DNA from: Clostridioides sp. ES-S-0010-02
GTDB lineage: Bacteria; Bacillota; Clostridia; Peptostreptococcales; Peptostreptococcaceae
DNA length: 64,000 bases
NCBI GenBank assembly: GCA_020641055.1
Contig: CP067345.1
Span: forward strand, 2,535,317 to 2,599,316
Reading direction: 5' to 3'
The notes under the pieces were generated by a model. That model did no database searches. It saw only the letters and a program-made list of their open reading frames with translations, and was not told where the DNA came from. The translations under genes were made by a program, and so were the position numbers. The stretch's first letter is position 1. Every line of letters begins with the position of its first letter. Shown here piece by piece: positions 4,402 through 64,000 of this stretch.

Positions 4402-4830
4402 ATGAAAACAAGTTCAATACAAGATTTAACACTAGAAAAACGTAACCTTATAAAAAAATATTCTCTTACTTTGAATGAAGATTTAATTTGGGAATTTAAA
4501 CACGATAAATACCACACTGTAAAATACTTCACACACAAGTTTGCAGTTAAAGAATCTATATTTGCTCTTTTATTCAATATACACAGATTATGTTATGCTA
4601 AAATAAAATACTTTGAATCAAATTTTTCAAAATATGAACCTTATAAATACAACTATCAAGAAGGATTTGTTAAATGTGAAATATATGATATGAGTTTTAT
4701 GTTGCATAAATATAGCAACATGATGATAGACTTAAGAAATTTACAAGAAATCAAAAATATAGAAGAGTTTAGATTATTTTGTGATTACTTAGAAAGCTTT
4801 GAAGATAACTTACAAGATTTAATTGTGTAG
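4402..4830 (+). CDS. Hypothetical protein, 142 residues
   Basis: I do not recognise this protein. It is soluble in appearance, rich in Lys, Tyr and Phe, with no signal peptide, no membrane segment and no metal motif. The N-terminal half includes FKHDKYHTVKYFTHKFAV and the C-terminal half looks helical and acidic. The ATG follows GGGGGA. It stands alone between the rib operon and a convergent transporter gene, with a terminator hairpin downstream at 4931-4959. Confidence 0.75.
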   Translation: MKTSSIQDLTLEKRNLIKKYSLTLNEDLIWEFKHDKYHTVKYFTHKFAVKESIFALLFNIHRLCYAKIKYFESNFSKYEPYKYNYQEGFVKCEIYDMSFMLHKYSNMMIDLRNLQEIKNIEEFRLFCDYLESFEDNLQDLIV

Positions 4831-53817: not shown

Positions 53818-54772
53818 TGTTATAAAATTTCCTCCTTATATATTCTAAGGTTCCTATATTTAGTTTCATTTTTAGAGTAGAATCTAGTGTATGAGTCACA
53901 TCTATAACATAGTATTCTCTACCTTTTAAACTTACTTTATCACCTGCTCTTATTCTATTTATATCTACTACGCAGTCAACACTTATAGTTTCTTCACCCG
54001 AATTAAACATTGCTTCTGCTGCTTTCTTAGATTCTTTTGCATTAGTTATCTTTTCATCTTGTTTAATCTTTTGTAGTGTCCCATACTTATCTGAGTCCTT
54101 TTTATAGGTGCCAATTATAGGTGCTTTTGTATTTTCATCTTTACTCTTACCTAACACTTTTACACTTGTTACTGCATCATTAAAGCTACTGGTAAAGTTC
54201 GCATCTTCTAATATACTATCTAATTTATATACATTTGCATTAGTACCAAGCTTAAATAATTTCAATTTATTATCCATTCTTACTCTAAATAAATCTCCAC
54301 CCTTACTAGCGGTTTCCTTTAAATCCTTTTTAATCATATCTAGTATATTAGTCTTATGTATTACTTTAGTAAGCTTCTTCCCTGTGTTAGCTAGATTGTA
54401 GTAAGGTATATTCCATTGTTTACAGTAGTACTCAATTCTCTGTGTTGCTGTATTTTCTTTAAAACTATATTGTTCTTCTGATTCTTCCATGTAAATAGTC
54501 CTTTCTCTGCAAGACAATGTCAGTTTTTTACTCTTTTCACTTCTTCTAGTTTCCCATATGACTCCATCAAATATAGTTTCTTCTTTTTTACTCTCATATG
54601 CAATATCAATTAGAACTATTTTATCACCTTTTTTAATTCCTATATCTTGAAGTTGCTTAGGTTCTACTAATGATACATCCATCTTATATGCAACTCCATC
54701 TATAGCTTCACTTAATGTTATTCCCTCATTAAAATTTGCAATGTCATATTTTCCATTTAGTATTATTTTCAT
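53810..54772 (-). CDS. XkdQ-like tail hub protein
   Basis: A 320-residue protein of the XkdQ/late-control D-like hub family, with an early beta-rich half and a second domain near RAGDKVSLKGREYYVIDVTH. It stands between the LysM tail protein and XkdR, as in PBSX. It should form part of the tail hub below the tube. Confidence 0.86.
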   Translation of the reverse strand: MKIILNGKYDIANFNEGITLSEAIDGVAYKMDVSLVEPKQLQDIGIKKGDKIVLIDIAYESKKEETIFDGVIWETRRSEKSKKLTLSCRERTIYMEESEEQYSFKENTATQRIEYYCKQWNIPYYNLANTGKKLTKVIHKTNILDMIKKDLKETASKGGDLFRVRMDNKLKLFKLGTNANVYKLDSILEDANFTSSFNDAVTSVKVLGKSKDENTKAPIIGTYKKDSDKYGTLQKIKQDEKITNAKESKKAAEAMFNSGEETISVDCVVDINRIRAGDKVSLKGREYYVIDVTHTLDSTLKMKLNIGTLEYIRRKFYNND

Positions 54773-55440
54773 TTGCTAGGTATCACCAACTTTTGTCCTT
54801 TTTTAATAATATTTGGATTTTTACCAATAACTTTTTTATTTTCGGGTATATTATAAATCTCTTTCCACCTTGAACCCTTACCTAAAAGATTTTTAGCTAT
54901 CTTATATAATGTATCACTTGCTTTAACAGTATATATTTTAGATTTAGTTTGAGTATTAGGTCTATTATCTTTTAAGTCTGTTTTAGCATTACTCTTAGTC
55001 TCTTTTTTTAATGTCTCTATCTTCAGTTCTCTGTAAGTTCTAAATGTTATCTCAATGTCCCTATCTTCTTCTCTTCCCGCTGTTTGAGTATTGCTAAAAC
55101 TAGATATTGTAACTAACCCATTGTAACCAAAACCAGTTACTATTAAGCGTAATGGTTCGGCTTGGTCTACCCATTTTTCAAGCATTGCAACTACTTCGAT
55201 TGGATTTTTTAACTCGCTATATCTGCAATAAGAAGCATCATATAAGTTAGGTAAGAATGTCTTGAATGATATTTCTCTTATCTTCTCCCCTTCTTTTTTA
55301 ATGTCAAATTCACCTAAATTCACTATATCTACAGTTTCAAATCTTTTTTCTTTTTTTATAGATAAAGAATCTTGCGGATTAACTGGAAAATGGAAATCTA
55401 TTTTTTCTTTTTCATTTTTTAGGTATATGTCTATTACCAA
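54769..55440 (-). CDS. LysM-containing tail protein (XkdP-like)
   Basis: A 223-residue protein with a beta-rich N-terminal part (KIDFHFPVNPQDSL) and a C-terminal LysM peptidoglycan-binding domain (YTVKASDTLYKIAKNLLG to the end). The start is TTG behind AGGAAG. It overlaps the XkdQ gene. In PBSX-like phages it directly follows the tape measure gene, but here a 7.5-kb cargo block separates the two. Confidence 0.88.
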   Translation of the reverse strand: MVIDIYLKNEKEKIDFHFPVNPQDSLSIKKEKRFETVDIVNLGEFDIKKEGEKIREISFKTFLPNLYDASYCRYSELKNPIEVVAMLEKWVDQAEPLRLIVTGFGYNGLVTISSFSNTQTAGREEDRDIEITFRTYRELKIETLKKETKSNAKTDLKDNRPNTQTKSKIYTVKASDTLYKIAKNLLGKGSRWKEIYNIPENKKVIGKNPNIIKKGQKLVIPSK

Positions 55441-55530
55441 GTTATCACTTCCTTTCTAAAATGTTTTTAAATACTACACCGCAGTTTTCTTACCATAAAC
55501 TCACTTCCTTTGATTTTTTATATAAAAAAA

Positions 55531-55552
55531 CACCTACCTTTTGAGTAAGTGC
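55531..55552. terminator. CACCTAC/GTAAGTG hairpin, copy 1
   Basis: CACCTAC (55531-55537) and GTAAGTG (55545-55551) form a short stem flanked by A and T tracts. Similar hairpins recur through the cargo island, near 56068, 57546, 59175, 59850, 60772, 61310 and 61905, mostly just after genes. Confidence 0.55.
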
Positions 55553-55692
55553 TTACTATATTCACCTTTTTATAATTAAATTTATTCATCCAGTTAGATT
55601 TATCATCATTGTGTATAAAAAATTTCATCTTTTTATTAACTATAAAAAATATTATAGGCAATATTTTTGCTAATTTGTGGTATAATAAAAGC

Positions 55693-55814
55693 AAGAAGAA
55701 CTACAATCTATTTTGCGGTAGAGTGAAGTTCTATAACTGAAAGTTATTTTTTACGATGATATTTAAAATTTATATCAATCTTTAAGTCACTCTTTGCGGT
55801 AGAGTGGCTTTTTA
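55693..55814 (+). ncRNA. Antisense antitoxin RNA (RCd-type), copy A
   Basis: A TGTGGTATAAT promoter (TATAAT 55681-55686) drives an RNA on the plus strand that runs opposite the 3' part of the toxin gene. It ends at the hairpin AGTCACTCT / AGAGTGGCT with TTTTT (55785-55813). This is the type I antitoxin layout known beside C. difficile CRISPR arrays. The 5' end is estimated from the -10 box. Confidence 0.82.
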
Positions 55815-55896
55815 CTTTTTTGATTAACTTGCTAATCAAATAAACTATGTAACTAGCTGTTACACTAGCTAACACATTAAATAAAAAATTATCCAT
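55744..55896 (-). CDS. Type I toxin, small membrane peptide, copy A
   Basis: A 50-residue peptide with an N-terminal MDNFLFNVLASVTASYIVYL membrane helix and a basic tail (LIKKVKSHSTAKS ... YHRKK). This fits the C. difficile type I toxins (CD0956.2/CD2907.2 group) known to sit beside CRISPR arrays. GGGAGGTGAAT precedes the ATG, but CCTCCC just upstream (55921-55930) can pair with GGGAGG and hide it. The antitoxin RNA is antisense to its 3' half. TATAAT at 55991-55996 is the likely toxin promoter. It adjoins the low-coordinate end of CRISPR array A. Confidence 0.88.
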   Translation of the reverse strand: MDNFLFNVLASVTASYIVYLISKLIKKVKSHSTAKSDLKIDINFKYHRKK

Positions 55897-56143
55897 GTAT
55901 ATTCACCTCCCTTCTTATCGTTGGGAGGATAATTTTTTAATACATGAACTCCACTCTATAAATTGTAGATTACATCTTCTTGCTACAATTATTATATCAT
56001 ATAATTTTTACATATTTTACCTATATATTACTTTTTACATTATAATTACATCCTTTCAATAAAAAACACCTACCATAAGCAAGTGTTTTTGTATAAATAT
56101 TCATAGTTTAAACTGAAGGATTTAATAATAGTATACTTATTAA

Positions 56144-57297
56144 ATATAAATACATCTCATGTTATTGTTTAACTCTATAGGTATAAAGAAACTGGAGAAG
56201 ATATTTACTTATTTAAATACATCTTATGTTATTGTTTAACTCTCCATTTTTGAAAGTATAAAGTTGTTGACCAATATTTAAATACATCTCATGTTATTGT
56301 TTAACATTAAATATAGAAAAATCTAAGATAGATGGTATTTGATTTAAATACATCTCATGTTATTGTTTAACTGTAGAAGATGTGCAATACTATCAGAAAA
56401 GAATCTAATTTAAATACATCTCATGTTATTGTTTAACAACTGCAAATATAATTTAAAGACAACCAACTCAACAATTTAAATACATCTCATGTTATTGTTT
56501 AACAGATATATTTGACGTTGAACCATTGCCACCAAAATTATTTAAATACATCTCATGTTATTGTTTAACCAGATAATGTTAGAGATTGTAATCGTATTTG
56601 GTTACTATTTAAATACATCTCATGTTATTGTTTAACTACAACATATGTACTTGGAGAAAATTCTATTGATTTATTTAAATACATCTCATGTTATTGTTTA
56701 ACGGAAAATGGAATTTTAAGCGATTTAATAATAGATAGATTTAAATACATCTCATGTTATTGTTTAACCAGCTAATGTGGAGTGGCGAAACTGTTTCAGA
56801 GAAAAATTTAAATACATCTCATGTTATTGTTTAACAAAATGCGATATTAGTGATATTGTAGGATACATAAAATTTAAATACATCTCATGTTATTGTTTAA
56901 CAATTTTATAATTACTTCTCAATTTGATTTGCAAATATTTAAATACATCTCATGTTATTGTTTAACTAGAGTACCAGTATGTAGACCTAAAAGGTGATAA
57001 TATATTTAAATACATCTCATGTTATTGTTTAACGGATTCAATAAATAAAAAAGGCGATATAGTTTATGCATTTAAATACATCTCATGTTATTGTTTAACT
57101 ATGAAAATTAATCTTAAAGAACTAAAAAGAGATTAATTTAAATACATCTCATGTTATTGTTTAACTTTTGCCAAATAGTCCTTTTTTAAATTTAATTAGT
57201 TCATTTAAATACATCTCATGTTATTGTTTAACGACAATTTTAATTTTGATTCTATTTCTATCAGTAAATTTAAATACATCTCATGTTATTGTTTAAC
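56144..57297 (-). CRISPR. CRISPR array A: 18 repeats, 17 spacers
   Basis: The repeat is 30 nt. On the transcribed strand it begins GTTAAACAATAACATGAG and ends TGTATTTAAAT; spacers are 35-38 nt. The repeats at the low-coordinate end are degenerate (56144: ATATAAA for ATTTAAA; 56211: one C to T), and a leader shared with array B abuts the high-coordinate end. So transcription and spacer addition run from high to low coordinate. Repeat length and host fit C. difficile type I-B arrays. No cas genes are present in this window. Confidence 0.98.
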
Positions 57298-57390
57298 CAC
57301 TGTAAAATACACATTCTTATACAGCATAATTTTCTAAAACCATTGCAAATACTAGCACTAATCAAATTTATCCCAAGTGTCTTTAAATTT
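57298..57390 (-). promoter_or_regulatory. Leader of CRISPR array A
   Basis: The ~90 bases next to the last repeat are almost identical to those next to array B (61750-61835). Shared landmarks are CACTGTAAAATACACATTC and TTATCCCAAGTG. This conservation and the intact adjacent repeat identify it as the leader, which normally holds the pre-crRNA promoter and adaptation signals. Confidence 0.85.
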
Positions 57391-57402
57391 CGGATGTTTT
57401 TA

Positions 57403-57509
57403 CCTAGCGATTCGCTAGGACGGTGATAATTGCTACATTTTACAACTATCTTTGCGAGTGCCTATCCCAATTACTTGGGATAAGCTCACATTTAGGATGC
57501 GTAATCACC
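57403..57509 (-). ncRNA. Candidate structured RNA upstream of leader A
   Basis: Read on the minus strand, an outer stem GGTGAT / ATCACC (57504-57509 with 57422-57427) encloses a stem GTGAG / CTCGC with one G-U pair. Above this is an 8-bp stem TATCCCAA / TTGGGATA closed by a GUAA tetraloop (GNRA type). A 7- to 8-bp hairpin CCTAGCG / CGCTAGG follows. The G-U pair and tetraloop make sense only on this strand. It is absent upstream of array B. The family and function are unknown. Confidence 0.5.
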
Positions 57510-57545
57510 CTATATTTAACACTACAATTATAGCATATTTTGGAA

Positions 57546-57582
57546 GATAAAGCACTTTTATGTACTTACTAAGTGCTTTATC
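57546..57582. terminator. Terminator after the 58-residue cargo gene
   Basis: A perfect 12-bp stem GATAAAGCACTT / AAGTGCTTTATC with a 13-base loop lies just past the stop of the minus-strand gene at 57592. It belongs to the recurring AGCAC...GTGCT hairpin set of the island. Confidence 0.75.
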
Positions 57583-57591
57583 CATATTATT

Positions 57592-57768
57592 TTACTTATT
57601 TTCTCTCTCTTCTTGTTCTCTAAGAATACCTCTCAATATCTCTGCATATTCTTGAAATTTTTCTTCGCTATTCTGTTTTAGTTCATATAACGCATTAGCA
57701 AATTTCACAAAATACTCTACATCTTCATCAGTTTTTAAATTGTACTCCTTAAGTAAACTTTCACGCAT
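57592..57768 (-). CDS. Small acidic coiled-coil protein in the cargo island
   Basis: A 58-residue, Glu-rich, probably helical protein (MRESLLKEYNLKTDEDVEYF). The ATG at 57768 follows AGGGGG; an upstream TTG overlaps that site. It lies directly downstream of the BRO-type gene and may be co-transcribed with it. No domain is recognised. Confidence 0.65.
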   Translation of the reverse strand: MRESLLKEYNLKTDEDVEYFVKFANALYELKQNSEEKFQEYAEILRGILREQEERENK

Positions 57769-57826
57769 TGTATTAATCCCCCTCAAAACTAAACTAAAAT
57801 ATATTATTTAATACAATCTTATAAAT

Positions 57827-58693
57827 TTACTCAATCTTATAAACCACATGATAATTCTTCTTCTCCCCTGCAATCTTAGCAGGTCTATTATTTTCCTCTA
57901 TCCATTTGCTAATCTTGTCTATTACACTTTGTGAATACTTTGTTGTAGTTCCATTCCAATTATCCTTATTTGCTAATACTATGAGTTTTTCTTCTTCTTT
58001 AATATCTAATTTCTTAATAATCTCACAAACTGCCACAAAATCAGGTTTATTAGTTTTAGAATACATATTTAATTTAATTGCAATTTGTTTTGTATCAAAG
58101 AAATGCTCTTTTTCTTCAATCTCCAAAGGTAACTCTATTCCTGCTTTCTTATAGATAGTTTTTGCTGTAAGTAACTTTGCTTTTTCATCTATTCCAGCAC
58201 CGTTTAGAAAAGGTGTTAGTATTTCTATAGTCTTGTTAACTGTGTCTAGACTTTCAATCTCACTTGCTTTTTCTCTTAACACTTGAGGGTCAGCGTTATT
58301 AGTTATGTATGCACCAGTTTGTCTTATGCTTGGTAAAACTTCTCGTCTAAGCCATTTTCTAAATTGAACACCGATAGGTTTGTCTGTGTATTGTAAGAAT
58401 CCATATAAACCATCTTCATAAAAAATAGTTATACTTCTAGCTTTATTACTAATTATATTATTTGCGACTACATTTAAAGTAGTTACAAAATCATTAAATT
58501 CAATTCCTTTCAATACATCATACTCTTGTTCAATTTCAAATTCTTCTGCTTTTACGCAATCCTGTATTGTTTTAGATACATCTGCATAGTCGAATAATCC
58601 AACTATTTGGTTGGCTATCCAACAAGATTTTCCTTTCCATACAAAAGTATAAATTTGACTTCCATTAAACTCTTTTACTATTAAATTTTCCAT
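57827..58693 (-). CDS. BRO-N domain phage antirepressor-type protein
   Basis: A 288-residue protein with an N-terminal BRO domain (TFVWKGKSCWIANQIVGLFDY, FRKWLRREVLPSIRQTGAYI in part), as in phage antirepressors. The C-terminal region is an unassigned domain with EKLIVLANKDNWNGTTTKYSQ. Such proteins often relieve repression or bind nucleic acid. AAGGAG precedes the ATG. It is next to a ribbon-helix-helix gene behind a large palindrome and may be regulated through the dyad at 58732. Confidence 0.85.
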   Translation of the reverse strand: MENLIVKEFNGSQIYTFVWKGKSCWIANQIVGLFDYADVSKTIQDCVKAEEFEIEQEYDVLKGIEFNDFVTTLNVVANNIISNKARSITIFYEDGLYGFLQYTDKPIGVQFRKWLRREVLPSIRQTGAYITNNADPQVLREKASEIESLDTVNKTIEILTPFLNGAGIDEKAKLLTAKTIYKKAGIELPLEIEEKEHFFDTKQIAIKLNMYSKTNKPDFVAVCEIIKKLDIKEEEKLIVLANKDNWNGTTTKYSQSVIDKISKWIEENNRPAKIAGEKKNYHVVYKIE

Positions 58694-58731
58694 AACTATT
58701 ACACTCCTTAAAATTGATTTTTTTCAAGGAA

Positions 58732-58770
58732 TGACGTATACTATAGTTAGTTGATGTATAGTATACGTCA
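58732..58770. promoter_or_regulatory. Perfect palindrome between the BRO and RHH genes
   Basis: A 14-bp perfect inverted repeat TGACGTATACTATA / TATAGTATACGTCA (58732-58745 with 58757-58770) sits about 40 bases upstream of the BRO start. It is a likely operator for a phage or island regulator. Confidence 0.65.
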
Positions 58771-58815
58771 ATAAGGGTTGCTCAAACTTTGGTCGGTGGG
58801 AGTGACCCTTATTTT

Positions 58816-59004
58816 TTATTCCTTTTGTTCCAGTTCTTCGTCGATTTTTTCTTCTAGCCATTCTTTCTTTGTTAGATTCTTTTCCTCTAACACTTCATCA
58901 AATTTATCTAACTTTTCTTTGTCTAGAAGTACACTAAAACCTCTTTTATCTTTTCGACGATTCTTCATATACTCTGCTCTACTTTTAGTTGCTATTTTAT
59001 TCAC
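58816..59004 (-). CDS. Ribbon-helix-helix (Arc/CopG-like) regulator
   Basis: A roughly 62-residue protein with a beta strand KRGFSVLLDK followed by two helices (EKLDKFDEVLEEKNLTKKEWLEEKI), the Arc/CopG pattern. I start it at GTG 59004 with AGAAAAGAG just upstream; the frame extends further, but the earlier codons fall in the operator. A large palindrome lies directly upstream, so autoregulation is likely. It may act on the BRO gene next to it. Confidence 0.78.
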   Translation of the reverse strand: MNKIATKSRAEYMKNRRKDKRGFSVLLDKEKLDKFDEVLEEKNLTKKEWLEEKIDEELEQKE

Positions 59005-59011
59005 CTCTTTT

Positions 59012-59054
59012 CTGTAACTCGTTACATTAATAATAACATTGTAACGAGTTACAG
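59012..59054. promoter_or_regulatory. Operator-like palindrome upstream of the RHH gene
   Basis: A perfect 15-bp inverted repeat CTGTAACTCGTTACA / TGTAACGAGTTACAG (13-base spacer). Each arm itself contains a GTAAC/GTTAC dyad, giving four half-sites. It overlaps the expected promoter of the ribbon-helix-helix gene. Confidence 0.78.
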
Positions 59055-59169
59055 TCAAGATATTTTGGAATATTTTTCAAATAAAATTTTATTGAAGCTA
59101 GCGTCGCAAAACACTACCTCAGCTATATCATTTTTCTAATTATTTTACTCAACCGACCAATTTGAGCAA

Positions 59170-59200
59170 AACAAAAGCACCTACATATTTGTAAGTGCCT
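59170..59200. terminator. CACCTAC/GTAAGTG hairpin after the gene at 59227
   Basis: GCACCTAC and GTAAGTGC form an imperfect stem between the ribbon-helix-helix and anchored-protein genes, at the 3' end of the latter. A near-identical hairpin follows the next gene at 59850. Confidence 0.6.
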
Positions 59201-59226
59201 TATGTATAGTTAATCTAATCCTAGGA

Positions 59227-59751
59227 CTAACTTTTAGCTTCAAGTTCTAAATCATCAATTAAATTTACATCATTTTTTATATTATTCCAATCATCTAAAA
59301 ATACATTATAAGTGAGTGTTACATCGACAATAAAGCTTATTCTAACTGAATGGATATCATTCATATCTTTTATATTGTTTACAAATTCTTTAGTAAAGTT
59401 TCTACACTCATTTTCATCATTAAACCTAGAATTTTCCACTTGAATGCTAACTATATATCCCTCACCTTTTGTTGGGGTTAATATGTTAACATAATATGTT
59501 GTTTTATCTTTTAAGTCTTCTGGTATAATAGAGTCTACTTTTACCTGCATCTCTTGTTTATAAATATCTTCTTTTTCTTTTTCACTAATTATATTTTCTT
59601 TTGTAATATTTCCTTCATCTACTTCATTTCTATTTTTTGAATCTCGTATAGCTTGATGAATCATCATTGATACTGTAAATACAATAAGGTATATTAAAAA
59701 TATCACTAAAAGTTTCTTCAACAAACTTAATTTTTTAAATTTTCCCCACAT
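59227..59751 (-). CDS. Membrane-anchored cargo protein, unknown function
   Basis: A 174-residue protein with one N-terminal membrane segment (LLVIFLIYLIVFTVSMMI) and a charged linker. An extracellular or C-terminal domain follows, with an NILTPTKGEGYIVSIQVE strand pair. GGGGAG sets the ATG at 59751. Its C-terminal part has a layout similar to the middle of the SHOCT protein at 59882 (EDLKDKTTYYVNI compared with PQEYKGSHYKVDV). Role unknown. Confidence 0.7.
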   Translation of the reverse strand: MWGKFKKLSLLKKLLVIFLIYLIVFTVSMMIHQAIRDSKNRNEVDEGNITKENIISEKEKEDIYKQEMQVKVDSIIPEDLKDKTTYYVNILTPTKGEGYIVSIQVENSRFNDENECRNFTKEFVNNIKDMNDIHSVRISFIVDVTLTYNVFLDDWNNIKNDVNLIDDLELEAKS

Positions 59752-59849
59752 AATATACTCTCCCCTATTAAATTCTTTACTCAAATATAATTCTATCTAA
59801 AAATAAGAACTTAGTCTATTAATTTAAAATATTTTGAGCAAAATAAAAG

Positions 59850-59880
59850 CACCTACATATTTGTAAGTGCTTGCTATATC
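59850..59880. terminator. CACCTAC/GTAAGTG hairpin after the gene at 59882
   Basis: AGCACCTACATATTTGTAAGTGCT makes a short stem-loop with A/T flanks. It is almost the same sequence as the hairpin at 59170. Confidence 0.6.
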
Positions 59881-59881
59881 T

Positions 59882-60709
59882 CTATTCCAATAATTCCTTT
59901 TTCTTTTTATTATATTCTTCCTGTGTAATTGCTCCTGAATCTAATAACTCTTTTAGTTTTTTTATTTGGTCTAGTGGGTCTACATAACTCTGATACTTTT
60001 TCTTTTCAGCCTCATCTATACCTTTTTGAATCTCTTCATCAGTCATAATATCACTTTCACTAAGATGTAAATCTAATGCAGATTTTTCACCAGTTTGTAC
60101 TTTTCTATAGTACTGAATATAAATCCTATTATACCTACCTCCATCATCTTTAGTGTAAAATTCAAAAGTGCAACAATCTATCTTAAAATCTTTTAATTCT
60201 TCTGTTATATATTTTATGAATAGTTGACATTCTTTAGTATTTTCAAATTTTTCATTTTGTACTGTTAAATAAAATTGAGTAAGCCCAGACTCAACTACAT
60301 CAACTTTATAGTGACTACCCTTATATTCTTGAGGTACTAATTCTTCTAATTTTGCTTTTAACTCCTCTACTGAGATTTTTTTTCCATATTTTTTCTCCCT
60401 TTTTTCTTTATCTATTTCTTCTTGTTTTCTGATTCTTTCAATTTCTTTTTCTGATTCTTCTTTCTTTTGTTGTTCCTCTAAAATAGCCATCTTTTCTTCT
60501 GTATATGGGCTTATATCTTCCCAAACTGCATATAAATATATTGTAAAAATAAGAAACATATAAGATATAATACACATCACTCTTTGTTTTTTTCTAACAA
60601 AATAAAGAATTATCAATGATGCCAAAAGCACCAAACTTCCTGGCATAAATCCTATAAATATAATTATACCTAATAACATTAATATTATTGCTATTATTAT
60701 CGCTGACAT
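59882..60709 (-). CDS. SHOCT-domain membrane protein
   Basis: A 275-residue protein with two or three N-terminal membrane segments (residues 1-60) and a long charged coiled coil (EEQQKKEESEKEIERIRKQ). A mixed domain follows, then a C-terminal SHOCT motif (LKELLDSGAITQEEYNKKK). SHOCT motifs are usually C-terminal oligomerisation helices. GGGGG sets the start at MSAIII. A second SHOCT protein is encoded at 61966. Function unknown; both lie in the island between the tape measure and LysM genes. Confidence 0.8.
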   Translation of the reverse strand: MSAIIIAIILMLLGIIIFIGFMPGSLVLLASLIILYFVRKKQRVMCIISYMFLIFTIYLYAVWEDISPYTEEKMAILEEQQKKEESEKEIERIRKQEEIDKEKREKKYGKKISVEELKAKLEELVPQEYKGSHYKVDVVESGLTQFYLTVQNEKFENTKECQLFIKYITEELKDFKIDCCTFEFYTKDDGGRYNRIYIQYYRKVQTGEKSALDLHLSESDIMTDEEIQKGIDEAEKKKYQSYVDPLDQIKKLKELLDSGAITQEEYNKKKKELLE

Positions 60710-60767
60710 AATAAAATCCCCCACAAATTACTCATCTCACACAATATTATAGCATAATTTGGCAAAA

Positions 60768-60802
60768 CAAAAGCACCTACCATAAAAGTAAGTGCTTTCT
60801 TA
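60768..60802. terminator. CACCTAC/GTAAGTG hairpin before module B
   Basis: CACCTAC and GTAAGTG form the same recurring stem-loop, here upstream of the SHOCT gene and of the second toxin-antitoxin module. It matches the copy at 55531 in position relative to the antitoxin. Confidence 0.55.
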
Positions 60803-60865
60803 TTTACAATTTTTATAATTAAATTTATTCATTAATTTAGATTCATTATCATTGTTTATAAAAAT

Positions 60866-60907
60866 TAACATTAATTATTGTCAAAACTGACAATAATTAA
60901 TGTTAAA
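60866..60907. repeat. Perfect 19-bp palindrome upstream of antitoxin B
   Basis: A perfect inverted repeat (60866-60884 with 60889-60907, loop AAAC) lies about 20 bases before the antitoxin -10 box. The sequences around it align with the copy A region near 55600-55680, but the palindrome itself is absent there. It could be an operator or an inserted element. Confidence 0.7.
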
Positions 60908-60935
60908 ATTTTTTTATTGTGGTATAATAAAAGCA

Positions 60936-61058
60936 AGAAGAACTACAATCTATTTGACAGTAGAGTGAAGTTCATAATTATAAGCTAATTATTTTTTGGA
61001 TTTAAACATAAATTTAAATTCAACTTGTAAGTCACTCTTTGTGCGAGAGTGGCTTTTT
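60936..61058 (+). ncRNA. Antisense antitoxin RNA (RCd-type), copy B
   Basis: GTGGTATAATAAAAG (TATAAT 60924-60929) drives an RNA antisense to the 3' half of the toxin gene. It ends at AGTCACTCT / AGAGTGGCT with TTTTT (61030-61057). The layout matches copy A. The 5' end is estimated. Confidence 0.82.
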
Positions 61059-61141
61059 GCTTTTTTGATTAATTTACCAATTACGTAAGCTATTAGAGTA
61101 GCTGTTAAGCTAGCTAATACGCCAATCAAAAAATTATCCAT
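60989..61141 (-). CDS. Type I toxin, small membrane peptide, copy B
   Basis: A 50-residue peptide related to copy A, starting MDNFLIGVLASLTATLIAYV with a basic tail (LIKKAKSHSRTKS ... FKSKK). GGGAGGTG precedes the ATG, and CCTCCC upstream can pair with GGGAGG. The antitoxin RNA overlaps its 3' end. It adjoins the low-coordinate end of CRISPR array B. Confidence 0.88.
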   Translation of the reverse strand: MDNFLIGVLASLTATLIAYVIGKLIKKAKSHSRTKSDLQVEFKFMFKSKK

Positions 61142-61386
61142 ACATACACACCTCCCTTCTAAACGTTGGGAGGATAATCTTTTGTATGAACTCCACTCTA
61201 TAAATTGTAGATTACATCTTCTTGCTTACAATTATTATATCATATAATTTTTACATATTTTACCTATATATTACTTTTTACATTATAATTACATCCTTTC
61301 AATAAAAAACACCTACCATAAGCAAGTGTTTTTGTATAAATATTCATAGTTTAAACTGAAGGATTTAATAATAGTATACTTATTAA

Positions 61387-61749
61387 ATATAAATACATCT
61401 CATGTTATTGTTTAACTTATTATGTGTGTCATATTTGTTGTTAATTTCCCTAGATTTAAATACATCTCATGTTATTGTTTAACAGATGATAGGATTGAAA
61501 ATGTAGATAATTTTGAGTTATTTAAATACATCTCATGTTATTGTTTAACTAAAAATAAGGAGGTATTATATGTTTAATAATTTAAGATTTAAATACATCT
61601 CATGTTATTGTTTAACTTGCTTACCTTGAAAACAAAAATGGTTTAACACTTGCATTTAAATACATCTCATGTTATTGTTTAACTGTAGTATCTTTATTTC
61701 TTTGTTATCTGCATTAAATATTTAAATACATCTCATGTTATTGTTTAAC
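61387..61749 (-). CRISPR. CRISPR array B: 6 repeats, 5 spacers
   Basis: The 30-nt repeat is the same as in array A; spacers are 36-37 nt. The repeat at the low end (61387) has the same ATATAAA degeneration as the first repeat of array A. The leader-like sequence abuts the high end, so the array is read high to low. One spacer (61550-61586) looks like the start of a gene, with AAGGAGG followed by ATG. No cas genes are present in this window. Confidence 0.98.
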
Positions 61750-61835
61750 CACTGTAAAATACACATTCTTATACAGCATAATTTTCTAAAACCATTGCAA
61801 ATACTATCACTAATCAGTTTTATCCCAAGTGTTTT
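61750..61835 (-). promoter_or_regulatory. Leader of CRISPR array B
   Basis: Nearly identical to the leader of array A over about 85 bases (only a few substitutions), then diverging. It lacks the structured element found beyond leader A. Confidence 0.85.
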
Positions 61836-61901
61836 TAGATTTCTTTACATACACTTAGTTAATATAATTCTCTATCTATATTATACCATTTTTTAACATA
61901 T

Positions 61902-61944
61902 AAAGCACTTGAAACAACAGAATATCCAAGTGCTTTGTATGTTT
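61902..61944 (-). terminator. Terminator after the SHOCT protein gene at 61966
   Basis: The stem ACATATAAAGCACTTG / CAAGTGCTTTGTATGT (one G-T pair) lies just past the stop of the minus-strand gene. It belongs to the recurring hairpin family. Confidence 0.75.
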
Positions 61945-61965
61945 ATACTTATTTATTTTCTCTTG

Positions 61966-62886
61966 TTATAAATTCAATAATTCTTTTTTCTTCTTACTAA
62001 ATTCTTCTTCTGTTATTGCTCCCATGTCTAATAACTCTTTTAACCCTTTCACTTGTTGTATTGCATCATCATTTGATTTTATTTGTTTTTCTTTATTATT
62101 TTCTAAATTATTCTTACTTATATTTATTTTTCTCCTTATATTGTCAATAAATTCTTGGCTATGAAAATTAAGTATTGAATCTTCAGCTATTATTTCCCTT
62201 AATTCTCCATGAGAAAAATATTCAATACTTATAAACAACTTTTCAGTTTTACTTTTTTTATTTCCAGTTCCTGACAACCCACCAACAATTGTTCCCATAG
62301 GACCAAATAAAGTTCCTATAGCTGCTCTTCCAACAACAGACTTATTATTATATGCTATTTCTTTCTCACTATACTTATTTACACTATATAAATCAGAAAA
62401 TTTAATACGCATTTTTTCTTCTTTTAAAAGTTTGCTCTCAATAACTAAACATGCATTATGGTTGTCAATAATTATACTTATTGCTTCACCCCTACAATTA
62501 GGAACTCCAACAGAATTATAGTAATCCATCTTCATTACCCCTTGTTTAACTATTTTATTTTTATTTCTTAATATAGTATCTGTCTTTTTATCTTGCATAT
62601 CTGTTATATTTTGATTAATTATATTGCATATTTTATCTTTTGAGTTACTTTTAAAATACAATACACTTTTTTTGCTTTCTATAATTAGCATATCATTATC
62701 AATAAAGACTTTCTCTATATCTAAAAGTTTTATTTCACTAATAGGTACTTGTTGCAATGTATATACAGATACTAGTTTTTTATCTATATACATAGTACAT
62801 GTAAGTTCATTGTTAAAATGTGGGTGCCCTTTTATATACATAAGCTTAAAATTCTTTATGTCATCTTTTCGTTTAAAAAAATTCAT
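61966..62886 (-). CDS. SHOCT-domain cytosolic protein with a PH-like N terminus
   Basis: A 306-residue protein. The N-terminal half shows short beta strands that could form PH-like domains. The middle has a Gly-rich GRAAIGTLFGPMGTIVGG segment, as in many SHOCT-linked proteins. The C terminus has the SHOCT motif LKELLDMGAITEEEFSKKK. GAGGGG sets the ATG at 62886. It is the first cargo gene after the tape measure gene and is cut off by its own terminator. Function unknown. Confidence 0.8.
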   Translation of the reverse strand: MNFFKRKDDIKNFKLMYIKGHPHFNNELTCTMYIDKKLVSVYTLQQVPISEIKLLDIEKVFIDNDMLIIESKKSVLYFKSNSKDKICNIINQNITDMQDKKTDTILRNKNKIVKQGVMKMDYYNSVGVPNCRGEAISIIIDNHNACLVIESKLLKEEKMRIKFSDLYSVNKYSEKEIAYNNKSVVGRAAIGTLFGPMGTIVGGLSGTGNKKSKTEKLFISIEYFSHGELREIIAEDSILNFHSQEFIDNIRRKINISKNNLENNKEKQIKSNDDAIQQVKGLKELLDMGAITEEEFSKKKKELLNL

Positions 62887-62966
62887 TTTAATCCCCTCAT
62901 AAATCAATAGTCTATAATGTTATTATAACATCTATAAGAAGGATTTTTTCAACAATAATTCGACAA

Positions 62967-64000
62967 TTATCCAATGTCTTCTAATGCTTCTCTTAATCCA
63001 CTTTCCACTTGAGACAATATTTCTTGTATCATTTCTTCTTTGTTATTGCTACCTTGAATATTTATAGATATTCCACCAACATTAATCGCATTACTTCCAC
63101 TAGAAATTATGTTTTGTGGTTGAGCTTCTTGATAAATTCTATTTTCTGTATTATTAAATTCTTCTTGTTTGGTAGGAAATTGTCTAACATTATTAATAAT
63201 ACTAGAATTACTATTTTGGATACTACTTGTAGAATTAAAACTAGTTCCTAATTTCTGAGAAATTGGAATTACATTATTACTTGCTTTAGTTCCAAGCATC
63301 TCTCCTGCTTGTTTATACAAACTTAATGCTCTACTTCTCTTATTATTAGAAAGAGGAATAACCATTTCAGGACCTGCTTCTCCACAAATACTTGGTTTAC
63401 TTGCAACACCACCATCTGCAAAATGGTCTAGTATATTGTTTACTCCAGTTTTTACTATACTTACAAAACCAGTTATTTTGGTAGAAAGTTTCTTTTTAAG
63501 AGAATCCCAAGCAGATTTAATTGAATCCACTTTACTTTTAAATCCGTTTTCTACAAGACTTACAAATCCACTTATTTTGCCAGATAAATTTACTTTAAGT
63601 CCTTGCCACCACATTCCAACTTGTTGAACTTTTTGTTGAAAACCATTGCTTACAAAACTAACAAATCCGCTTATTTTTTGGCCTACATTAGTTTTTAAAT
63701 CAGACCACCATTGTTTTACTTGCCCTACTTTTTCTGAAAATCCATTATCAATAAAATTTACAACTGCTTTAAGTGGTGCTCCTAAAACTCCTTTTATACC
63801 TTCCCATAAAGACTTAACCACTTCCCTAATTCCTTCGAAAACATCAGAAAATCCTTGTTTTATGTTTTCGCCATCACCACTAATTATCCCACCTATGATT
63901 TCGAATATTCCTTTTATTATATCAATTACACCTTTTATAGCGCCTGCTACAGCCTTTATAACAGATGTAATTGCATTAATAACAGAAGTTATAACTAAAA
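62967..64000 (-). CDS. Phage tail tape measure protein, C-terminal part
   Basis: The frame is open from the window edge, so only the last 344 residues are seen. The visible part has hydrophobic helices (IKAVAGAIKGVIDIIKGIF), then three related segments, such as KISGFVSFVSNGFQQKVQQ and KISGFVSLVENGFKSKVDS, each ending in a Trp-containing motif. DHFADGGVASKPSICGEAGPEMVIPL, found in part in many tape measures, follows. It sets tail length in the contractile tail. The next tail gene (LysM) is 7.5 kb away, across the cargo island. Confidence 0.93.
   Translation of the reverse strand, partial: LVITSVINAITSVIKAVAGAIKGVIDIIKGIFEIIGGIISGDGENIKQGFSDVFEGIREVVKSLWEGIKGVLGAPLKAVVNFIDNGFSEKVGQVKQWWSDLKTNVGQKISGFVSFVSNGFQQKVQQVGMWWQGLKVNLSGKISGFVSLVENGFKSKVDSIKSAWDSLKKKLSTKITGFVSIVKTGVNNILDHFADGGVASKPSICGEAGPEMVIPLSNNKRSRALSLYKQAGEMLGTKASNNVIPISQKLGTSFNSTSSIQNSNSSIINNVRQFPTKQEEFNNTENRIYQEAQPQNIISSGSNAINVGGISINIQGSNNKEEMIQEILSQVESGLREALEDIG

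Follow-up and report, generated by a model that had tools for sequence, protein, structure and literature searches.

The stretch analysed here, the window, comprises 64,000 nucleotides (positions 2,535,317–2,599,316) of the 4.26-Mb, one-contig genome of Clostridioides sp. ES-S-0010-02 (G000; 99.97% complete), and its phage matches are to Clostridioides phages in 8 of 8 records. Near its end, a 7.5-kb block (55441–62966) is bounded by the gene for an XkdP-like LysM tail protein (54769–55440, minus strand) and by the 3′ end of the tape-measure gene (at 62967, minus strand). The block contains two arrays of clustered regularly interspaced short palindromic repeats (CRISPR), and our subject is their origin and probable use. 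A first-pass annotation, made from the sequence alone, placed the block and listed its contents correctly except for one protein label, but it overlooked that the repeat type of the arrays is unlike that of related phages and matches the cas-adjacent array of the host. An assembly artefact is unlikely as the source of the block, because the same architecture is present in other sequenced phages and the genome is a single, near-complete contig. The borders of the block, the arrays and their flanks are as follows.

54769–55440, minus strand: XkdP-like LysM tail protein at the right border of the slot (Pfam LysM, E = 5.6e-05; PHROG 380, 3.1e-84; 91–98% identity in 51 IMG/VR loci)
56144–57297, minus strand: CRISPR array A, 18 repeats and 17 spacers, host-type repeat (differs at 1 of 30 bases from the host cas-adjacent array)
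57298–57391, minus strand: leader of array A, with the 3′ end TTTTACAGTG as in the host array
61387–61749, minus strand: CRISPR array B, 6 repeats and 5 spacers, host-type repeat
61750–61842, minus strand: leader of array B, 89 of 94 bases as in leader A
61843–61869, minus strand: C. difficile-type repeat relic lacking two bases, located where relatives have their first old-type repeat (alignment)
62967–64000, minus strand: tape-measure gene, 3′ part, which forms the left border of the slot and continues beyond the window end (91.9% identical to the phiCD27 tape-measure protein over 284 amino acids (aa))

Two arrays of the host's repeat type

All 24 repeats of arrays A and B reach the gathering score of the Rfam model CRISPR-DR3. 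The arrays have no cas genes nearby: Cas1 and Cas6 were each found at one place, and Cas3 at one place above the family cut-off, solely at 1.99–2.00 Mb of the genome, and the window lies at 2.54–2.60 Mb. The one G000 array of the same type outside the prophage is that of the cas locus (30 repeats), which shares 29 of 30 bases with the prophage repeat. As relatives of the phage we used 51 IMG/VR loci chosen by a near-identical LysM gene. Their arrays carry the C. difficile repeat, here termed old-type, and a 20-base part of the window repeat (up to 3 mismatches) was found in 0 of the 51. Across genomes of eight species of the genus, the new-type repeat (up to one mismatch) has 54 copies in G000 and none in the 7 other species; the exact old-type repeat has 27–155 copies in each of those 7 and a single copy in G000. 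Repeat folding was dropped as a line of evidence, as 0 of 4 repeats folded better than shuffled sequences.

The leaders follow the same division. Each of the three G000 arrays has the motif TTTTACAGTG immediately ahead of its first repeat, the prophage arrays sharing 10 of 10 bases with the cas-adjacent array; one further, chance copy lies in the window at 4515. Among 71 genomes of the family, the repeat with this leader end occurs in two besides G000, both from other genera. In old-type phage arrays, TTTTGGG precedes the repeat in 10 of 13 distinct leaders, as it does in the cas-adjacent array of G005, a relative 97% identical to G000 at ispG (other species, 91%).

The cas loci of these two genomes belong to different branches of type I-B. 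Profiles assign that of G000 to the Csh1/Cas5h branch (with Cas7 below the cut-off) and that of G005 to the Cst1/Cst2/Cas5t branch; the two Cas1 proteins are 39% identical. The G000 locus is a 13.4-kb insert after ispG, where G005 has 64 bp. At the G000 site corresponding to the Cst-type locus of G005 the flanks are intact, and the 8.4 kb between them lacks any match to that locus. The Cas3 score is 221–229 bits in the six other species, 218 in G005 and 144 in G000. Csh-type I-B is the only cas type found in G000, which is without the usual Cst-type locus. The usual cas-locus site (G000:C1:903107-911531; L204) is occupied instead by large signalling-like genes, the long frames of which look like signalling proteins.

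To relate the arrays to targets, we compared the 22 prophage and 29 host-array spacers with 117 phage loci (1.97 Mb). Five of the 22 prophage spacers have protospacers in Clostridioides phages (phiC2, phiCDKH02, AR1074-1 or a G021 phage). Their 5′ protospacer-adjacent motifs (PAMs) are TCA for A8 (4 mismatches), A15 (5) and A16 (2), TCG for A17 (5) and TGA for B4 (1). One of the 29 host-array spacers (H2) has targets, with the PAM TCC or TCT. Targets were found for 34 of 145 distinct spacers of old-type arrays (up to 6 mismatches), and their PAMs are CCA (18), CCT (11), CCG (3), CCC (1) and GCA (1). A CCN PAM therefore accompanies 33 of 34 matched spacers in old-type arrays compared with 0 of 5 in the prophage arrays (Fisher p about 1e-5, with n = 5 spacers on the new-type side). 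The old-type set of repeat, leader end (mostly TTTTGGG) and PAM fits the Cst-type I-B locus typed in G005. Shuffled spacers gave a measure of chance matches: with a threshold of 40 bits, 4 of the 22 prophage spacers matched compared with 1 of 220 shuffled ones, and 1 of 29 host-array spacers compared with 0 of 290. Within the window and the 13 kb that follow it, no prophage spacer had a self-target scoring at least 36 bits. Single searches of the phage collection with 8 of the 22 spacers led to Clostridioides phages for A8 and B4, gave no match for A16, A11 and B5, and gave short, weak matches elsewhere for B2, A12 and A5. An old-type spacer of one relative matches the window phage itself (1 mismatch, CCA), which indicates that phages of this group target one another.

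Traces of cassette exchange

Beside array B, the relic aligns with the first old-type repeat of two related loci (L061 and L069) and of a second prophage of the same host, and an independent search with the cas region of G005 matched 61832–61867 to the cas-adjacent old-type array of that genome (92%). The window is 99.6% identical to L068 over 1,328 bp up to 61873, and L068 has an old-type array after its gene for SHOCT313, the 313-aa protein next to the tape-measure gene; likeness to L069 runs to 61843. On the toxin side of the arrays, likeness to relatives restarts at 56112 and 61355. Near identity between copies A and B covers the leader and the stretch between the array end and about 55975; it drops to about 80% in the toxin modules and to chance level beyond the leader. 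Judged from this pattern of identity, the toxin–antitoxin–array units go back to a single cassette and have been partly homogenised, by copying or conversion between their two positions, with the exchange lying within the toxin modules.

We consider it probable that these Cas-less arrays use the host Cas proteins against rival phages and that their leader–array cassette was exchanged to fit the host. What is directly observed is the anatomy, the agreement of repeat and leader end, PAMs that look TCN-like in prophage and host arrays, the relic, the breakpoints and the homogenised copies. Expression, interference, spacer acquisition and the direction from old to new type are what we infer. In the lysogen, arrays A and B would be transcribed, processed by the host Cas6 and loaded into the host Csh-type I-B effector, the predicted CRISPR RNAs bearing the handle TATTTAAAT, and the prophage would shield the host cell, and hence itself, from rival phages. 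The host Cas1–Cas2–Cas4 proteins would insert spacers at the TTTTACAGTG leader end, and the toxin module would penalise loss of the prophage. Related phages have this unit in the Cst-type I-B format; in the window phage, the leader–array cassette would have been swapped for one in the Csh format, leaving an old repeat beside array B, and the new cassette would then have been copied or converted between both array positions, with exchange points within the toxin–antitoxin modules.

Sharp breakpoints on both sides of each cassette, in a slot whose content is mosaic throughout, could also have arisen the other way round, if a phage line native to Csh-type hosts, its arrays being new-type from the start, had gained its tape-measure/SHOCT and toxin flanks from C. 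difficile phages by recombination; the match to the host would then reflect lineage history. We regard this as unlikely, although it deserves some weight. The old-type relic and its promoter-like TGGTATAAT occupy the position syntenic with the old array, and the LysM gene, the tape-measure end, the BRO group and the toxin modules are all like those of C. difficile phages. Moreover, no phage with native new-type arrays of such a kind was found in viral contigs. Three viral contigs (L089–L091) contain the 20-base part of the repeat, none with the island and only L090 with a BRO protein (26% identical); none has the repeat together with the leader end.

Several points weigh against an exchange that fitted the arrays to the host. 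The case is built on a single phage genome, and the related loci are not independent samples: several are near-identical records, so slot counts are not independent either. Targets were found for 5 of 22 spacers only, all with 1–5 mismatches, and one PAM (TGA) is not TCN; moreover, the C. difficile system itself tolerates YCN in interference (PMC8406132). TTTTGGG is absent from 3 of the 13 old-type leaders (the exceptions are in L061, L069 and L070). The host leader is unlike the prophage leader past the last 10 bases, and neither the array trailers nor the spacers connect the prophage arrays with that of the host (51 of 51 spacers are distinct). Nor did the viral contig searches yield a second phage with new-type arrays.

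A variable cargo slot

The slot is complete in 42 of the 51 related loci and cut by a contig end in the other 9. Complete slots are 738–8,789 bp long, and each of the 42 holds a gene. The block was first described as splitting the tape-measure gene from the LysM gene, a view that these slots do not support, and the tape-measure frame stays open for 1,426 codons across the window end, so that gene is not broken. The proposal of accessory cargo outside the tail operon holds: the block is a variable moron (cargo) slot between the two genes. The slot itself thus recurs in all 42 relatives, but arrays occur in only some of them, with at least one repeat in 14 (at least two in 13) and none in 28. 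The array-less slots hold a membrane-protein gene, c0, alone (in L074, c0 is present as a 54-aa fragment only). BRO and toxin genes each occur in 11 slots, always alongside repeats, and neither is found in any of the 28 array-less slots; repeats occur without a toxin in L038, L054 and L070 and without BRO in L038, L061 and L068. A unit of regulator, BRO, p64 and array is doubled in L069 and L070, and the gene adjoining the tape measure is exchangeable, being either c0 or the SHOCT gene c6.

In the window, the minus-strand order of transcription is SHOCT313, array B with toxin B, SHOCT280, a 185-aa membrane protein, a small regulator-like protein, BRO, p64 and array A with toxin A. The remaining features of the block are listed below.

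55690–55810, plus strand: putative antitoxin RNA A, antisense to the toxin 3′ end (limits approximate; TGGTATAAT just upstream; hairpin at 55784–55810, plus strand; role by analogy to published RCd RNAs)
55744–55896, minus strand: type I toxin A, 50 aa (NCBIfam CD_typeI_toxin, NF047374, E = 5.6e-27)
57592–57786, minus strand: p64, small BRO-linked protein (PHROG 2435, 1.6e-27; cluster c4)
57827–58693, minus strand: BRO-N/anti-repressor-like protein, 288 aa (Pfam Bro-N, 2e-08; PHROG anti-repressor, 9.7e-128)
58816–59058, minus strand: small regulator-like protein (PHROGs of unknown function; weak match to a repressor family, E = 0.003; inverted repeat at 59006–59060 across the start region)
59227–59784, minus strand: membrane protein, 185 aa, distant c0 member without a SHOCT domain (PHROG 20098, 7.9e-90)
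59882–60724, minus strand: membrane protein with a SHOCT end, 280 aa (SHOCT280, c29; Pfam SHOCT, 3.8e-11)
60932–61055, plus strand: putative antitoxin RNA B (limits approximate; hairpin at 61029–61055, plus strand; promoter region 95% identical to that of copy A)
60989–61141, minus strand: type I toxin B, 50 aa (assigned by its 60% identity to toxin A)
61966–62907, minus strand: SHOCT protein, 313 aa (SHOCT313, cluster c6; Pfam SHOCT, 7.5e-09; PHROG 20665, 3.5e-211)

Profiles, repeat counts and toxin identity bear out the annotated pair of arrays, the two type I toxin modules and the BRO protein, the last by its Bro-N domain, which marks 57827–58693 as a BRO/anti-repressor-like protein. Of the three proteins called membrane or SHOCT proteins, two have the SHOCT domain and the third (59227–59784) does not. 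A ribbon–helix–helix label for 58816–59058 found no counterpart in the profiles, which gave only the families listed. The view that most genes have their own terminators agrees with 11 terminator-like hairpins in the block compared with 0.7 expected from shuffles. Near-identical terminators (AAAGCACCTAC...GTAAGTGCTTT) close several cargo genes (55528–55554, 59174–59201, 59847–59872 and 60762–60801) and could provide homology for gene exchange.

We take the BRO group to be a regulatory neighbour of the arrays. A 13-base inverted repeat (GACGTATACTATA...TATAGTATACGTC) at 58733–58770, between the regulator and BRO genes, is perhaps an operator. A scan of genome contigs with BRO returned a single locus, in C. 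difficile CD10-165.

The commonest slot gene, c0 (for example, L045:6257-7060, L039:9189-9932 and L060:6014-6808), has a conserved membrane N terminus and at least three unrelated C-terminal parts, one of which is common to the window proteins at 59227–59784 and 59882–60724, an instance of modular exchange. A gene annotated as a partial tail tape measure in CD1801 (MW512570.1, 14327–15079; L004:8688-9440) is a SHOCT/DUF4428 relative and unrelated to tape measures.

The block had also been put forward as one system that includes the SHOCT proteins. All its genes do lie in one slot and on one strand, and the 280-aa protein weakly matches HEC-01A in PADLOC (8.6e-04, residues 60–161), where the cargo has weak matches only (ZorB, 0.04). 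We nevertheless find a joint defence system of this kind very improbable, given that 28 of 42 slots have c0 and no array, that c6 and c0 replace each other, that each gene has its own terminator and that no confident fold match was obtained. The linked set is instead regulator, BRO, p64, array and toxin, next to an interchangeable gene on the tape-measure side. The first-pass interpretation is supported in part, for the cargo status but not for the splitting or the joint system with SHOCT proteins. As a system core the SHOCT proteins were rejected: two models had a mean predicted local distance difference test (pLDDT) score of 69.6 and 48.3 with no confident fold match, and a viral fold search with the better one gave no match at E ≤ 0.001. 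SHOCT280 has no counterpart in the 51 relatives at the clustering threshold. We read the SHOCT proteins as variable passengers.

In some relatives, one to four repeats persist after a promoter-like sequence, and solitary phage repeats can act as RNA anti-CRISPRs (PMC10651486), which raises the idea that short arrays or single repeats are decoys against the host effector. We give this hardly any credence for the window, where 17 + 5 distinct spacers, some with phage targets, fit guides and where the one relic belongs to a type that does not match the G000 host.

The second prophage of the host, which is CD1801-like and lies at 2.33 Mb of the genome (L099, G000:C1:2330001-2334500), has a slot with a SHOCT gene, a BRO gene interrupted by one in-frame stop and three degenerate old-type repeats, with no match to p64 or the toxin. 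Its decay is weak evidence only, because one to four repeats are also retained in the slots of some C. difficile phages.

A CD-family type I toxin adjoins the array, and its antisense RNA is predicted from sequence features alone. By analogy with the prophage phiCD630-1, which is stabilised by toxin modules (PMC7699646), the modules most likely keep the prophage. The same precedent would allow the arrays to be little or not transcribed and to hitch-hike with modules that keep the prophage region, as would the constant company of BRO or toxin neighbours (save in L038). We think such inert cargo improbable: repeat and leader end agree with the host type and the PAMs look compatible with it, the strain 630 prophage arrays CRISPR 3/4 and 16/15 are active in interference (PMC8406132), and the second prophage retains just three degenerate old-type repeats, as if mismatched arrays were not kept.

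Comparison with known systems

That phage-borne arrays work through the Cas proteins of the host is usually assumed from the likeness of their repeats. In the present case a single phage lineage encounters two Cas branches; its arrays differ between them in repeat, leader end and PAM, with hardly any change in the genes alongside. This provides a natural test of whether phage arrays persist because they function with the resident Cas, a question that straightforward plasmid experiments with the native strain could address. A broader and more tentative proposal, to which we lean less than evenly, is that temperate phages retune their CRISPR cargo, a leader–repeat cassette bounded by toxin–antitoxin modules and leader relics being swappable and mismatched arrays decaying. 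If so, one phage lineage would keep interfering with rivals after moving to a host with a different Cas branch.

Parts of this arrangement are already published, namely BRO beside tail-region arrays and toxins beside arrays. As the first-pass annotation stated, arrays have been described in the tail regions of C. difficile prophages (PMC5127024), as have prophage arrays beside type I toxins (PMC6563280, PMC6079278), and prophage repeat families correlate with sequence type, ribotype and prophage type (PMC10778935). Within Creative Commons (CC)-licensed papers, to which the search was confined, we found no published account of array-type exchange within a phage lineage. As far as the literature was searched, what is new is the occurrence, in the same slot and phage lineage, of arrays of another I-B branch that fit a host without the usual cas locus, together with a relic of the old array.

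The closest counterparts are CRISPR 3/4 and 16/15 of phiCD630-1 and phiCD630-2, Cas-less prophage arrays that, as in the window, lie beside type I toxins of the same family (CD0956.2–RCd10 and CD2907.1–RCd9; PMC6563280, PMC8406132). However, those arrays belong to the Cst-type system, whereas the repeat and leader end of the window arrays are of another I-B branch and match the resident Csh-type locus, which their PAMs also seem to fit; arrays A and B have neither the C. difficile-type repeat nor, in the five spacers with targets, the CCN PAM that characterise C. difficile prophage arrays. Phage CDKM15 likewise has a tail-region array that adjoins a Bro-N gene and lacks cas, but its repeat is the 29-bp old type with a conserved 13-bp leader end, and that study mentions neither exchange nor relic (PMC5127024). 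The cargo of phiCDKH02 and phiC2 resembles that of the window in its BRO, regulator and DUF4428–SHOCT or DUF4352 genes and includes a 34-aa toxin, with arrays in phiCDKH02; unlike in the window, the slot is on the other side of the tape-measure gene, as is the BRO–regulator–toxin–array region of phiCDKH02. Further afield, Sulfolobus viruses have Cas-less mini-CRISPR arrays with host-compatible repeats, for which a role in conflicts between viruses has been proposed and partly shown (PMC8616872). The window arrays are likewise Cas-less with host-type repeats, and 5 of their 22 spacers match other phages. They differ in being multi-spacer arrays in a bacterial prophage, accompanied by toxin modules and by a visible change of array type.

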